NCBI GenBank assembly: GCA_027012955.1
Contig: JALUYL010000069.1
Location: 1-40,433 of the forward strand
Direction: 5' to 3'
Source of the DNA: Sulfurovum sp.
Lineage (GTDB): Bacteria; Campylobacterota; Campylobacteria; Campylobacterales; Sulfurovaceae
Length of the DNA: 40,433 nt
Shown here: in pieces, positions 31,655 to 35,793 of the stretch
Numbering within the stretch: the first letter of the stretch is position 1
How the letters are laid out: every line of letters starts with the position of its first letter
Made by a program: the position numbers and the translations under genes
The notes under the pieces: generated by a model
The model's input: only the letters and a program-made list of their open reading frames with translations
Databases searched by the model: none
Told to the model about the DNA's origin: nothing

Positions 31655-31679
31655 AGATACTCCTTTTTATTTGCATTTA

Positions 31680-31707
31680 AAATATTATAACATAATTTGA
31701 TTATTGA
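31680..31707 (-). repeat. 28-bp direct repeat, copy 1, carrying the promoter of the ParE module
   Basis: This 28-base sequence is repeated exactly at 31902-31929. On the minus strand it contains TGTTATAAT, an extended -10 element (-10 at 31684-31689), 30 bases before the antitoxin start. It also supplies the stop codon (31701-31703) of the lone antitoxin gene upstream. Similarity between the copies continues into the leader (CATAGA, CCTT, ATTTG). Confidence 0.75.
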
Positions 31708-31877
31708 GCTATATCATTTTCCATCTCTTTATTTGAAATCACTTTACCAACATCAACATCATTCAGCCCTCGCTGTATCATTGTATCAAAGGCTAACTCT
31801 CTCACTATCTCTTCATATGTTGAATCTTCAGGCAAAGCATCTATAATTTTCTTGGCTTCTTCTTTAGGTGCAGTCAT
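31701..31877 (-). CDS. lone, probably truncated antitoxin
   Basis: A 58-residue frame begins MTAPKEEAKKIIDALPEDS, continues TYEEIVRELAFDTMIQRGLN, and ends DVDVGKVISNKEMENDIAQ. This resembles small antitoxins usually paired with ParE/RelE toxins, whose members commonly run on for several residues after the last helix. Here the frame ends within the 28-bp repeat, and no toxin gene follows. An AGAAGGA site precedes the ATG. It is probably the remainder of a second module whose toxin was lost by recombination between the repeats. Confidence 0.6.
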   Translation of the reverse strand: MTAPKEEAKKIIDALPEDSTYEEIVRELAFDTMIQRGLNDVDVGKVISNKEMENDIAQ

Positions 31878-31901
31878 AGAACATCCTTCTATTTGTATTG
31901 G

Positions 31902-31929
31902 AAATATTATAACATAATTTGATTATTGA
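31902..31929 (-). repeat. 28-bp direct repeat, copy 2, carrying the promoter of the lone antitoxin
   Basis: This is identical to 31680-31707 and has the same extended -10 element (-10 at 31906-31911), 29 bases before the lone antitoxin start. The duplicated promoter shows that the two antitoxin operons share ancestry or regulation. Confidence 0.75.
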
Positions 31930-31952: not shown

Positions 31953-32006
31953 ACATTTGTAATTTTTTCAAGAAGCATTGTAGGGTGCTGTTGCTACAGC
32001 ACCTTT
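31953..32006 (+). repeat. direct repeat A at the left edge of the XRE/Sel1 cassette
   Basis: This 54-base segment matches 34200-34254 at 50 of 55 aligned positions, with four substitutions and one gap. The last 27 bases, including a complete REP-like hairpin, are identical. The matching part of the other copy is the 3' end of the XRE regulator gene, so this copy contains a relic of the same coding end (frame LDYADICNFFKKH compared with LDVNICDFFQEEL). Confidence 0.7.
31980..32003 (+). repeat. REP-like palindrome left of the cassette
   Basis: GTAG is followed by GGTGCTGT, loop TGCT and ACAGCACC, a perfect 8-bp hairpin. It is identical to 34228-34251. Confidence 0.75.
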
Positions 32007-32010
32007 GACT

Positions 32011-32036
32011 AGTATCACAGCTCCAGCTGTGATACT
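32011..32036. repeat. 26-bp near-perfect palindrome
   Basis: AGTATCACAGCT and AGCTGTGATACT pair over 12 bases with only CC between them. It has no T tract and no GTAG head directly before it, so it is neither a clear terminator nor a standard member of the REP family. It lies 7 bases after direct repeat A-REP and about 100 bases beyond the stop of the Sel1 gene. Confidence 0.6.
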
Positions 32037-32132
32037 TTATATCAGTATATGAATTTGTATACTATATATGCTACTGAGAGAAATTCAATATTTTATTTAA
32101 TTGACACAGAATTATTTACACGCTCATCTATT
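32037..32132. other. AT-rich spacer after the Sel1 gene
   Basis: I see no gene, hairpin with T tract or promoter of note here. Together with the repeats at 31878-32036 it makes about 255 bases without coding sequence. Confidence 0.4.
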
Positions 32133-33206
32133 CTAAAAACCAAAAAATGATAATTTAAATGCTTTCCACCATGTCGCGAACAACTCTCCTCCATTTTTAC
32201 TTACATCAATATACCAATATATGACCATCAATGGTATAATAATTATTCCGGTTAATATATTTTTAATTTTTTCATTCTTTTTAGAGAAAAGATATGCTGA
32301 TAAGATTAACAGAGCAAGTATTCCAACAAGGTACCTCGCCCATGAATGATTAATTGACTTTAATAAATATTCTTCATCCTCCTCAGTAATAGTCTTATAA
32401 TACTCACACCCATTTTCTAAGCCTTGTTCACAAACTTTAGAAAATAAGTATTTTGCTTTATCTTTATCTTGATTTACTCCTGTCCCATAAGCATACGATA
32501 CACCAAGGTTAAGACATCCCTCAGCACTACCAGCATCACAAGCCTTACCAAATAACTCTACCGCCCTAGAATAATCCTGCTTCACACCTTCACCATTAGA
32601 ATACCAAACCCCAAGGTTAGTACATCCCCCAGTGCCTCCAGCATCACAAGCCTTACTAAACAACTCTATCGCCTTAGAGTAGTCCTGCTTCACACCTTTC
32701 CCTTCCTTGTACATATTCCCAAGGTTATCACATCCTATAGCATCCCCACCATCACAAGCCTTAGCATAAAACTCTACTGCTTTAAAATAATCCTGTTTCA
32801 CGCCTAAACCACCATAATACGAAACCCCAAGGTTACAACATACAATAGCAAGACCACCATCACAAGCTCTCTCAAATAGCTGGATTGATTTAATGTAGTC
32901 CTTTTCTACAACTATACCTTCAGAATATATATTCCCAAGACCATAACATCCAATATTATCACCATCATCACAAGCTTTTTTAAAAAGTTGAGCCTCTTTA
33001 TCGAAGTCTTGTTTTACTCCCTCTCCTGCACCATACAAAATAGCAAGCCTAGAACAGCCATCGGCATGTCCACTCTCACAAGCTATAGAAAGGATTTTAA
33101 TACCTTTTGCGTAATCTCCATTTTTAATAGCTTCTACACCATCATCTACAATATTTGCATAGAGAAGCATTCCTAGTATAAAAAATAACCCTATTATTTT
33201 CTTCAT
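32133..33206 (-). CDS. Sel1-repeat (Hcp-like) protein with C-terminal membrane anchor
   Basis: The 357-residue protein has a signal peptide (about 1-18) and then six complete 36-residue Sel1-like repeats plus a partial seventh (to about 270). Each has the pattern K-A-C-D-x-G-x-x-x-G-C-x-N-L-G and G-V-K-Q-D. The two Cys per repeat are spaced as in the Helicobacter cysteine-rich Hcp proteins, where they form disulfides. Unlike Hcp proteins it ends with two hydrophobic segments (YLVGILALLILSAYLF and ILTGIIIIPLMVIYWYI), so it should sit in the inner membrane with repeats in the periplasm. It is the last gene of the cassette operon. Confidence 0.85.
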   Translation of the reverse strand: MKKIIGLFFILGMLLYANIVDDGVEAIKNGDYAKGIKILSIACESGHADGCSRLAILYGAGEGVKQDFDKEAQLFKKACDDGDNIGCYGLGNIYSEGIVVEKDYIKSIQLFERACDGGLAIVCCNLGVSYYGGLGVKQDYFKAVEFYAKACDGGDAIGCDNLGNMYKEGKGVKQDYSKAIELFSKACDAGGTGGCTNLGVWYSNGEGVKQDYSRAVELFGKACDAGSAEGCLNLGVSYAYGTGVNQDKDKAKYLFSKVCEQGLENGCEYYKTITEEDEEYLLKSINHSWARYLVGILALLILSAYLFSKKNEKIKNILTGIIIIPLMVIYWYIDVSKNGGELFATWWKAFKLSFFGF

Positions 33207-33225
33207 TTTTTATTCCCAAATTTCA

Positions 33226-33540
33226 TCAATAAGCCTTATAGTTATCTAACGGTTTACCTGTCCCACCATTAATTTTTAATTCTCTACATACTATTTTATA
33301 GTATTCAGGTTGTATACCTGGAATGTCTTTATGAATTCCATGGGTATTCAAAGAACGAATTGTCGGATAATATTCCCATTCTTCATTCTTCGTGATGTAG
33401 TTATTAAGCTCATTAAGATTTTGAAAAAAATTCTCTTTAAAATCTCTCATATAATTAAATATTTCCATAGATTCATGGACAGTAATGTTATGTTGTCTAC
33501 AAAGAGAACCATATATCTCAGGTATCTGAACCCTATTCAT
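33226..33540 (-). CDS. 104-residue protein of unknown function
   Basis: I do not recognise this protein. It is hydrophilic, with no signal peptide or membrane helix, and includes YGSLCRQHNITVHESMEIF, WEYYPTIRSL and a C-terminal GGTGKPLDNYKAY. Its ATG lies 8 bases inside the 3' end of the lipoprotein gene, and the Sel1 gene starts 19 bases after its stop, so the three genes form one transcript. Confidence 0.6.
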   Translation of the reverse strand: MNRVQIPEIYGSLCRQHNITVHESMEIFNYMRDFKENFFQNLNELNNYITKNEEWEYYPTIRSLNTHGIHKDIPGIQPEYYKIVCRELKINGGTGKPLDNYKAY

Positions 33541-33892
33541 GCTTAATCTTTTTATCTACTTTGATAGATACCGCTGAATCAACTTCATATTTTGTATATC
33601 CTTTATACTCTTGACTATTTGTATTAAGACATTTATAATCTATAATTGTATTGTAAAGGTCATCCTCTTTATTTTTATTATTTTTTCTTTCATTTAAAAC
33701 TTTCATTGCTAATCCCATACTCTTACAATGCTCTAAAGCATCATGATAAGTCGTCATTCTTGTCATTCTTTGTAACGTATATACATTATTTCCTATTTGT
33801 ACTGGTGCATAATCACCAGCACAACCACTTAAACTTACTCCTGCCAAAATCAATAGCGCTATACTAACTCCAAAACTTACTATATTCTTCAT
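33533..33892 (-). CDS. small lipoprotein, first gene of the cassette operon
   Basis: The 119-residue protein has a signal peptide ending in SLSGC with lipidated Cys24. The mature part contains YAPVQIGNNVYTLQRMTRM and a charged Lys/Asn/Glu stretch (LNERKNNKNKEDD), and two Cys residues. The first mature residues resemble small YgdI/YgdR-like lipoproteins only vaguely, and the function is unknown. It is divergent from the XRE regulator across an 87-base region with two operator-like palindromes. Confidence 0.65.
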   Translation of the reverse strand: MKNIVSFGVSIALLILAGVSLSGCAGDYAPVQIGNNVYTLQRMTRMTTYHDALEHCKSMGLAMKVLNERKNNKNKEDDLYNTIIDYKCLNTNSQEYKGYTKYEVDSAVSIKVDKKIKHE

Positions 33893-33909
33893 CGCATTTC
33901 CCTATTTAG

Positions 33910-33923
33910 ACTACAACTGTAGT
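33910..33923. promoter_or_regulatory. operator-like palindrome 1 in the XRE/lipoprotein intergenic region
   Basis: ACTACA and TGTAGT form a perfect inverted repeat with a 2-base spacer. It touches the -35 box of the XRE promoter and lies downstream of a candidate -10 for the divergent lipoprotein gene. Confidence 0.5.
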
Positions 33924-33952
33924 TTGATAAAATATTATCACACAGTCATACT
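33924..33952 (+). promoter_or_regulatory. promoter of the XRE regulator gene
   Basis: TTGATA (33924-33929) and CATACT (33947-33952) are separated by 17 bases, 28 bases before the start codon. The two palindromes flank this promoter exactly on each side, as expected for autorepression. Confidence 0.5.
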
Positions 33953-33972
33953 TACACTACGATTATAGTGTA
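33953..33972. promoter_or_regulatory. operator-like palindrome 2 in the XRE/lipoprotein intergenic region
   Basis: TACACTA and TAGTGTA form a perfect inverted repeat with a 6-base spacer directly after the -10 box, covering the expected transcription start of the XRE gene. Confidence 0.5.
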
Positions 33973-33979
33973 GGATATT

Positions 33980-34231
33980 ATGAATAAAAAGTTAAATAAT
34001 TTAAGTAGTGACGCATTACATATACATATAGGGAAAAATGTCGCATGTCTTAGAAAAAAGGCGAACTTCAGTCAATTAGAATTATCTTTAGAAATAGGAA
34101 ATAAATCTCCTAGTTTACTTAGTTCAGCAGAAGTTTACAAAAATAAACGCCATTTCAATATTACACAACTACATAAAATTGCAAAAGTTTTAGATGTAAA
34201 TATTTGTGATTTTTTTCAGGAAGAATTGTAG
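33980..34231 (+). CDS. XRE-family transcriptional regulator
   Basis: This 83-residue DNA-binding protein consists almost only of a Cro/C1 helix-turn-helix domain (HIGKNVACLRKKANFSQLEL, NKSPSLLSSAEVYKN, FNITQLHKIAKVLDVNICDFF). It is divergent from the lipoprotein-104aa-Sel1 operon and likely represses both directions through the palindromes between them. The TAG stop codon is part of the GTAG head of a REP-like hairpin, so the gene ends exactly where the repeat begins. Confidence 0.82.
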   Translation: MNKKLNNLSSDALHIHIGKNVACLRKKANFSQLELSLEIGNKSPSLLSSAEVYKNKRHFNITQLHKIAKVLDVNICDFFQEEL

Positions 34232-34254
34232 GGTGCTGTTGCTACAGCACCTTT
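34200..34254 (+). repeat. direct repeat B at the right edge of the XRE/Sel1 cassette
   Basis: This 55-base segment overlaps the last ten codons of the XRE gene and the REP-like hairpin after it. It matches 31953-32006 in the same orientation, enclosing about 2.2 kb with the four cassette genes. Confidence 0.7.
34228..34251 (+). repeat. REP-like palindrome overlapping the XRE stop codon
   Basis: GTAG is followed by GGTGCTGT, loop TGCT and ACAGCACC. It is identical to 31980-32003. With the minus-oriented copy at 34318 it forms an outward-headed pair. Confidence 0.75.
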
Positions 34255-34317
34255 AAAAGTTTATTCATTTTATTAAGCCTTTCGGCGAAAGTTTATCTAT
34301 ATGCAAATTGTCCCATT

Positions 34318-34341
34318 GGTGCGTTAGCAAACGCACCCTAC
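34318..34341 (-). repeat. REP-like palindrome downstream of guaB
   Basis: On the minus strand GTAG is followed by GGTGCGTT, loop TGCT and AACGCACC. Compared with the copies at 31980 and 34228 the loop is identical, while stem positions differ on both sides so that pairing is kept. It ends four bases from the guaB stop. Confidence 0.75.
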
Positions 34342-34344
34342 AGA

Positions 34345-35793
<1,449 letters not shown>

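Follow-up and report, generated by a model that had tools for sequence, protein, structure and literature searches.

In the window, by which we mean the whole 40,433-nt stretch of Sulfurovum DNA that was analysed, four AT-rich genes lie in the guaB-metY interval between two direct repeats that each carry a REP. The question raised by this arrangement is whether the genes constitute a cassette that moves between REP sites, as a preliminary description had proposed, or a regulatory unit for which the repeats are of little consequence. Judging from the comparisons described below, we consider it likely that the small XRE-type protein encoded at the guaB end is an autorepressor acting over a divergent, exchangeable and mostly envelope-directed operon.

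The open reading frames of the four genes are as previously described (Table 1), and their GC content is mostly 29-34%, with 41% within the Sel1 gene and 37-46% on the guaB side. The regulator passes the Pfam gathering score for HTH_3 with 28.3 bits (cut-off 23). The Sel1 protein contains six repeats (PF08238, E 4e-52), matches HcpC/HcpB-type structures, and has many Sel1 paralogues in the genus; it resembles Helicobacter HcpB and HcpC (1klx, 1ouv) in its secreted 36-residue Sel1 repeats, but adds membrane segments at the C-terminus. No homologue of the lipoprotein was found in 60 relatives, phage records or viral contigs, and the 104-aa protein has one distant relative (32%) among 249 genomes of the order. 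AlphaFold models made without alignments gave pLDDT values of 43 for the lipoprotein and 55 for the 104-aa protein and were set aside. A type II toxin-antitoxin system was considered and rejected, as the XRE gene is divergent from the operon rather than part of a co-directional pair, and the cargo has no match to a toxin family.

Table 1. Features of the guaB-metY interval in the window (positions on the 40,433-nt stretch).
Feature	Position	Strand	Remarks
Relic of XRE gene 3' end	31953..31979	+	one T shorter than the G008 copy
Single GTAG REP	31980..32003	+	abuts the XRE relic; identical to 34228-34251
Cargo 3, Sel1-repeat (Hcp-like) protein, 357 aa	32133..33206	-	signal peptide; C-terminal membrane segments
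Cargo 2, 104 aa	33226..33540	-	no signal peptide; overlaps cargo 1 by 8 bp
Cargo 1, lipoprotein, 119 aa	33533..33892	-	lipobox LSGC
Conserved regulatory module	33900..34390		guaB, REPIN, XRE, promoter, both palindromes; from blastn and alignment
Predicted operator 1 (cargo-proximal)	33910..33923		ACTACAACTGTAGT; 17 nt before lipoprotein ATG; kept in G021, G027
Predicted operator 2 (XRE-proximal)	33954..33971		ACACTACGATTATAGTGT; core 33956-33969; 10 nt before XRE ATG; kept in G021, G027
XRE/Cro-type regulator, 83 aa	33980..34231	+	HTH_3 E 1.8e-6; homologues at guaB in G021 (88%) and G027 (81%)
REPIN	34228..34341		between XRE and guaB 3' ends; two GTAG REPs, 34228-34251 (+) and 34318-34341 (-)

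Global alignment reproduces the direct repeats: 31953-32006 and 34200-34254 agree in 50 of 55 columns, with a single gap, and share a core of 44 nt without gaps (31963-32006 / 34211-34254) that is 95% identical in the same orientation. Both copies had been said to end in the same REP. The two REPs are indeed identical, but the right one is half of a REPIN, with its inverted partner at 34318-34341, and the left one is single. These elements show the features of GTAG REPs and REPINs, namely a GTAG-tagged palindrome, a high copy number, many inverted pairs, and a RAYT in the genome: the pattern GTAGGGTGN(8-16)CACC has 107 matches in the 1.7-Mb assembly of the window genome and none when reversed as a control, and of 41 genomes examined in the genus, 30 encode a RAYT-type Y1_Tnp protein that scores above the cut-off, the window genome (G000) among them. 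GTAG REPs have been reported in Sulfurovum NBC37-1 and tend to supply the TAG stop codons of genes (PMC3733652). In the window, the TAG stop codon of the XRE gene sits within the GTAG tag at 34228-34231. The window REPs are therefore ordinary and no different in kind, and because a REP is a repeat of such high copy number, the two REPs by themselves tell little; the informative part of the direct repeat is the 28 nt preceding the REP, i.e. the junction with the XRE end. A perfect 12-bp palindrome (AGTATCACAGCT/AGCTGTGATACT, 32011-32036) adjoins the left REP and has a 100% copy at G000:C72:1428-1456, and is perhaps a second dispersed palindromic repeat.

The proposal that the left copy joins a relic of the XRE gene's 3' end to the REP is borne out. 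Of the 36 different REP flanks compared in the window genome, only the one in the left copy is similar to the XRE tail, with a score of 17 where the runner-up reaches 11 and the median is about 6. A close relative (G008, metX 97%) has the same relic, the same junction to the promoter of the neighbouring toxin-antitoxin genes and the same REP, and an XRE gene of the window kind was not found in its genome. The G008 relic reads in frame as DICNFFQEAL-stop, where the window XRE gene ends in NICDFFQEEL-stop. Since relic, junction and REP are shared, the relic probably predates the split of G008 and the window genome, and a recent insertion of the present genes is unlikely to have produced it. In another relative (G024), about 55 nt of an XRE 3' end is fused to the guaB REPIN and no XRE gene is present. 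In G018, an XRE module with a REPIN at the purB 3' end is tandem-duplicated with a purB 3' fragment (L089, G018:C11, 1-6395), the cargo sitting between the two copies, and this tandem may show an earlier stage of relic formation. Taken together, the G008 relic, the G024 stub and the G018 tandem suggest that the left repeat most likely descends from a previous or additional module of which a deletion has left only a stub, in agreement with the earlier suggestion that another cassette had once been present. The left repeat would then be the remnant of the 3' end and REP of that module, presumably left by the deletion.

Another conceivable source, an XRE tail travelling within a REP-RAYT element, was discarded, as the match beside a RAYT at G027:C11 consists of a REP and T-rich sequence with no XRE tail. 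The XRE copies of L089 are very similar, yet their two REPINs have unlike stems; the REPs may have been swapped or acquired separately. On the far side of the left repeat, the window also contains an orphan antitoxin-like ORF of about 58 aa on the minus strand (31711-31880). It adjoins an intact antitoxin/ParE pair, and the 43 nt of its promoter region occur twice, at 91% identity (31665-31707 / 31887-31929); for the same antitoxin, the toxin partner is still present at G021:C35.

The preliminary description had suggested a comparison of the metY-guaB interval in related strains, and this comparison reveals a variable site. The two neighbours have a readable interval in 26 genomes, and 15 of these intervals are empty (113-235 bp, where empty denotes 250 bp or less); the remaining ones carry unrelated genes, including toxin-antitoxin and Uma2 genes. 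An XRE gene adjoins guaB with different cargo in G021 and in G027 (Sulfurovum sp. NORP62, of the same genus as the window genome), and relics are found in G024 and G008. A more distant XRE, at guaB in G025 and without a REPIN, belongs to a different clade (SH-aLRT 96), the one with the TCTAATA class of operator; the guaB site has therefore been entered at least twice, and the notion that all XREs at this site are one orthologue was rejected.

Alignment with G021 and G027 delineates what is conserved. The window DNA is alike from guaB through the REPIN, the XRE gene, the promoter and both palindromes (89% to G021, 77% to G027), and the homology ends at 33907 in the former and at 33900 in the latter, 8-15 bp short of the lipoprotein ATG at 33892. 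Beyond the break, the window has the lipoprotein, 104-aa and Sel1 genes, G021 has a small membrane protein, and G027 has another lipoprotein with a relative of the small membrane protein of G021. The alignments of these three relatives indicate that the regulator and its control region persist while the cargo is replaced.

The conserved control region of the window contains a pair of matched palindromes between the XRE gene and the divergent operon (33910-33923 and 33956-33969), and only 1 of 100 shuffles reaches the score of this pair. Of 91 loci, 51 have two matching 14-bp palindromes upstream of XRE, with a score that no more than 1 of 100 dinucleotide shuffles attains. A score of at least 22 is attained by 54 of 93 XRE upstream regions (58%) versus 14 of 360 control upstream regions of other genes (4%), and about 40% of the loci are without a clear operator pair. 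A spacing of 49-54 nt separates the two sites in 43 of 54 loci, and they typically start about -73 and -20 from the XRE start codon; in the window the spacing is 46 rather than 53 nt. The predicted operator sequence varies among loci, and both sites within one locus match. Moreover, the half-site varies with the residues in what is presumed to be the recognition region (Mantel, 0/500); for instance, CTAACTA accompanies HKAVGT, CTTGTTA accompanies HKS(V/L)SI, TCTAATA accompanies YKSVSP, and ACTACAA accompanies NKSPSL. The nearest neighbour shares at least 6 of 7 half-site positions in 45 of 60 cases (10.4 expected), a covariation that partly reflects shared ancestry.

The arrangement extends far beyond the guaB site. 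A profile built from 13 XREs identifies 80 loci in named genomes, nearly all in Campylobacterota and two in Piscirickettsiaceae, and nine plasmid records carry a family member. A divergent ORF starts 20-260 nt upstream of XRE (median 98 nt) in 81 of 87 loci. The first cargo is predicted to be an envelope or secreted protein in 57 of 81 cases (70%) versus 125 of 379 (33%) for other ORFs in the same loci (Fisher p 7e-10), the signal-peptide and ORF calls being crude home-made heuristics; about 30% of first cargos are without a predicted envelope signal. Clustering of the 81 cargos gives 58 groups between which no similarity is detected. Together with the predicted paired palindromes, the envelope bias is consistent with the self-regulated envelope operon of the preliminary description. 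Certain cargos are plainly not of the envelope type. A plasmid-borne member drives a GGDEF gene, a further member lies beside hipA in a different arrangement, and tandem XRE modules are seen in L089, L133, L151 and L159. A set of XRE and lipoprotein with conserved cargo stands beside relaxase/mobilisation genes in three loci, L102 (G000:C13), L092 (G035) and L093 (G023), so family members ride on mobilisable elements in the genus, the window genome included. In L047 and L049, hydrophobic peptides of 26-27 aa (e.g. MDTHSLIALLGYLFLAVYYLIQLFKH) are encoded just past the XRE 3' end and are followed by a hairpin; they resemble small membrane peptides, possibly type I toxins. We found no description of the family in the open-access literature, and a small XRE regulator with its own matched sites and changing envelope genes is apparently a widespread, undescribed pattern in Campylobacterota.

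Comparison with known systems places the regulator among familiar folds. The best PDB sequence match to the XRE profile is SinR of Bacillus (3qq6, 1b0n; E 5.4e-8), which has the same type of DNA-binding domain. SinR possesses a separate multimerisation/SinI-binding domain and a dispersed regulon, whereas the window XRE is the DNA-binding domain alone. The restriction-modification controller C.BclI (2b5a; profile E 3.6e-6) is likewise a small XRE-fold regulator of about 80 aa, and C proteins have palindromic operators upstream of their own gene, as predicted for the window XRE. However, C proteins control a restriction endonuclease and both activate and repress, whereas the XRE regulators described here face mostly envelope cargo, each of the two divergent genes having its own predicted operator; restriction-modification genes are absent from the cassette and its neighbours, and the PADLOC matches to control proteins are weak (E 2e-4). 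Phage cI/cro-type switches are similar in their divergent promoters and repeated operators between two genes, but the window module has no opposing second repressor, prophage genes or viral-contig homologues.

We propose that the XRE protein most likely dimerises and binds the two matched 14-bp palindromes, one before each divergent start codon, and would thereby repress its own gene as well as the lipoprotein-104aa-Sel1 operon until a signal lifts the repression. Repression, rather than activation, is suggested because the predicted operators lie close to both start codons. Regulator, promoter and operators would stay together, while the cargo past the cargo-proximal operator would be replaced, mostly by small envelope or secreted proteins. 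The window module occupies the variable guaB-metY interval, the left repeat probably being a leftover of the earlier module.

A different reading has the four genes excised and inserted through recombination of the REP-ended repeats. The near-identical 44-nt core in the same orientation, the G024 relic with REPIN and guaB but neither XRE gene nor cargo, as excision would leave, and the tandem at purB are all in keeping with it. Nevertheless, it appears very improbable. The XREs close to that of the window (in G021 and G027) are found only at the guaB 3' end among 78 genomes of the genus, REPIN without XRE (G020) and XRE without REPIN (G025) both occur there, and no recombinase is encoded in 31953-34254. 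Away from guaB, only the purB case in G018 combines an XRE 3' end with a REP; a cassette moving between REP sites is therefore not supported. Flanking direct repeats surround 6 of 73 family loci versus 8 of 127 controls, which shows no enrichment, so such repeats were dismissed as a general feature of XRE modules. An autonomous mobile cassette would have a recombinase or defined ends and recur as the same unit at several sites, and the window locus does not fit this description. We regard the REPs as incidental; what deserves attention is a regulator whose predicted operator pair is private to it and whose exchangeable cargo is mostly directed to the envelope.

Two further readings leave the REPs aside. 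An old XRE operon inherited at guaB and now decaying, with cargo differences arising from gene turnover in a hot spot next to toxin-antitoxin modules, would explain the patchy losses and relics within one clade and the presence of toxin-antitoxin, Uma2 and further genes in this interval in relatives. Yet random turnover would not be expected to yield the sharp boundary of cargo replacement at the operator in three relatives, or the family-wide divergent envelope-cargo pattern, and the XREs at guaB come from two clades; we consider such an ordinary islet unlikely. It is also unlikely that the module derives from a plasmid or mobile element and serves exclusion or defence, with XRE controlling a surface lipoprotein by which phages or plasmids are kept out of the cell. 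The XRE-lipoprotein sets beside mobilisation genes and the plasmid-borne members agree with this possibility, but the cargo is too diverse for a single exclusion mechanism, PADLOC, PHROGs and NCBIfam give only generic HTH and Sel1/TPR-type matches with no defence family, and the XRE profile, the lipoprotein and the 104-aa protein have no relatives in viral contigs.

Returning to the divergent autorepressor module, we speculate that it may act as a socket: mutually orthogonal autorepressors with private operator pairs, into which recombination at the cargo-proximal operator plugs new envelope genes, on chromosomes and mobilisable elements across Campylobacterota, as a general route to surface proteins without constitutive cost. 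This generalisation is tentative. If the proposed module is real, dozens of Campylobacterota operons for small lipoproteins and membrane proteins, hitherto without annotation, would come under one regulatory logic with predictable operators, and the covariation of XRE and operator would offer a ready set of candidate orthogonal repressors. New surface genes would then arrive under immediate control, the regulator being kept and the cargo exchanged at the operator boundary.
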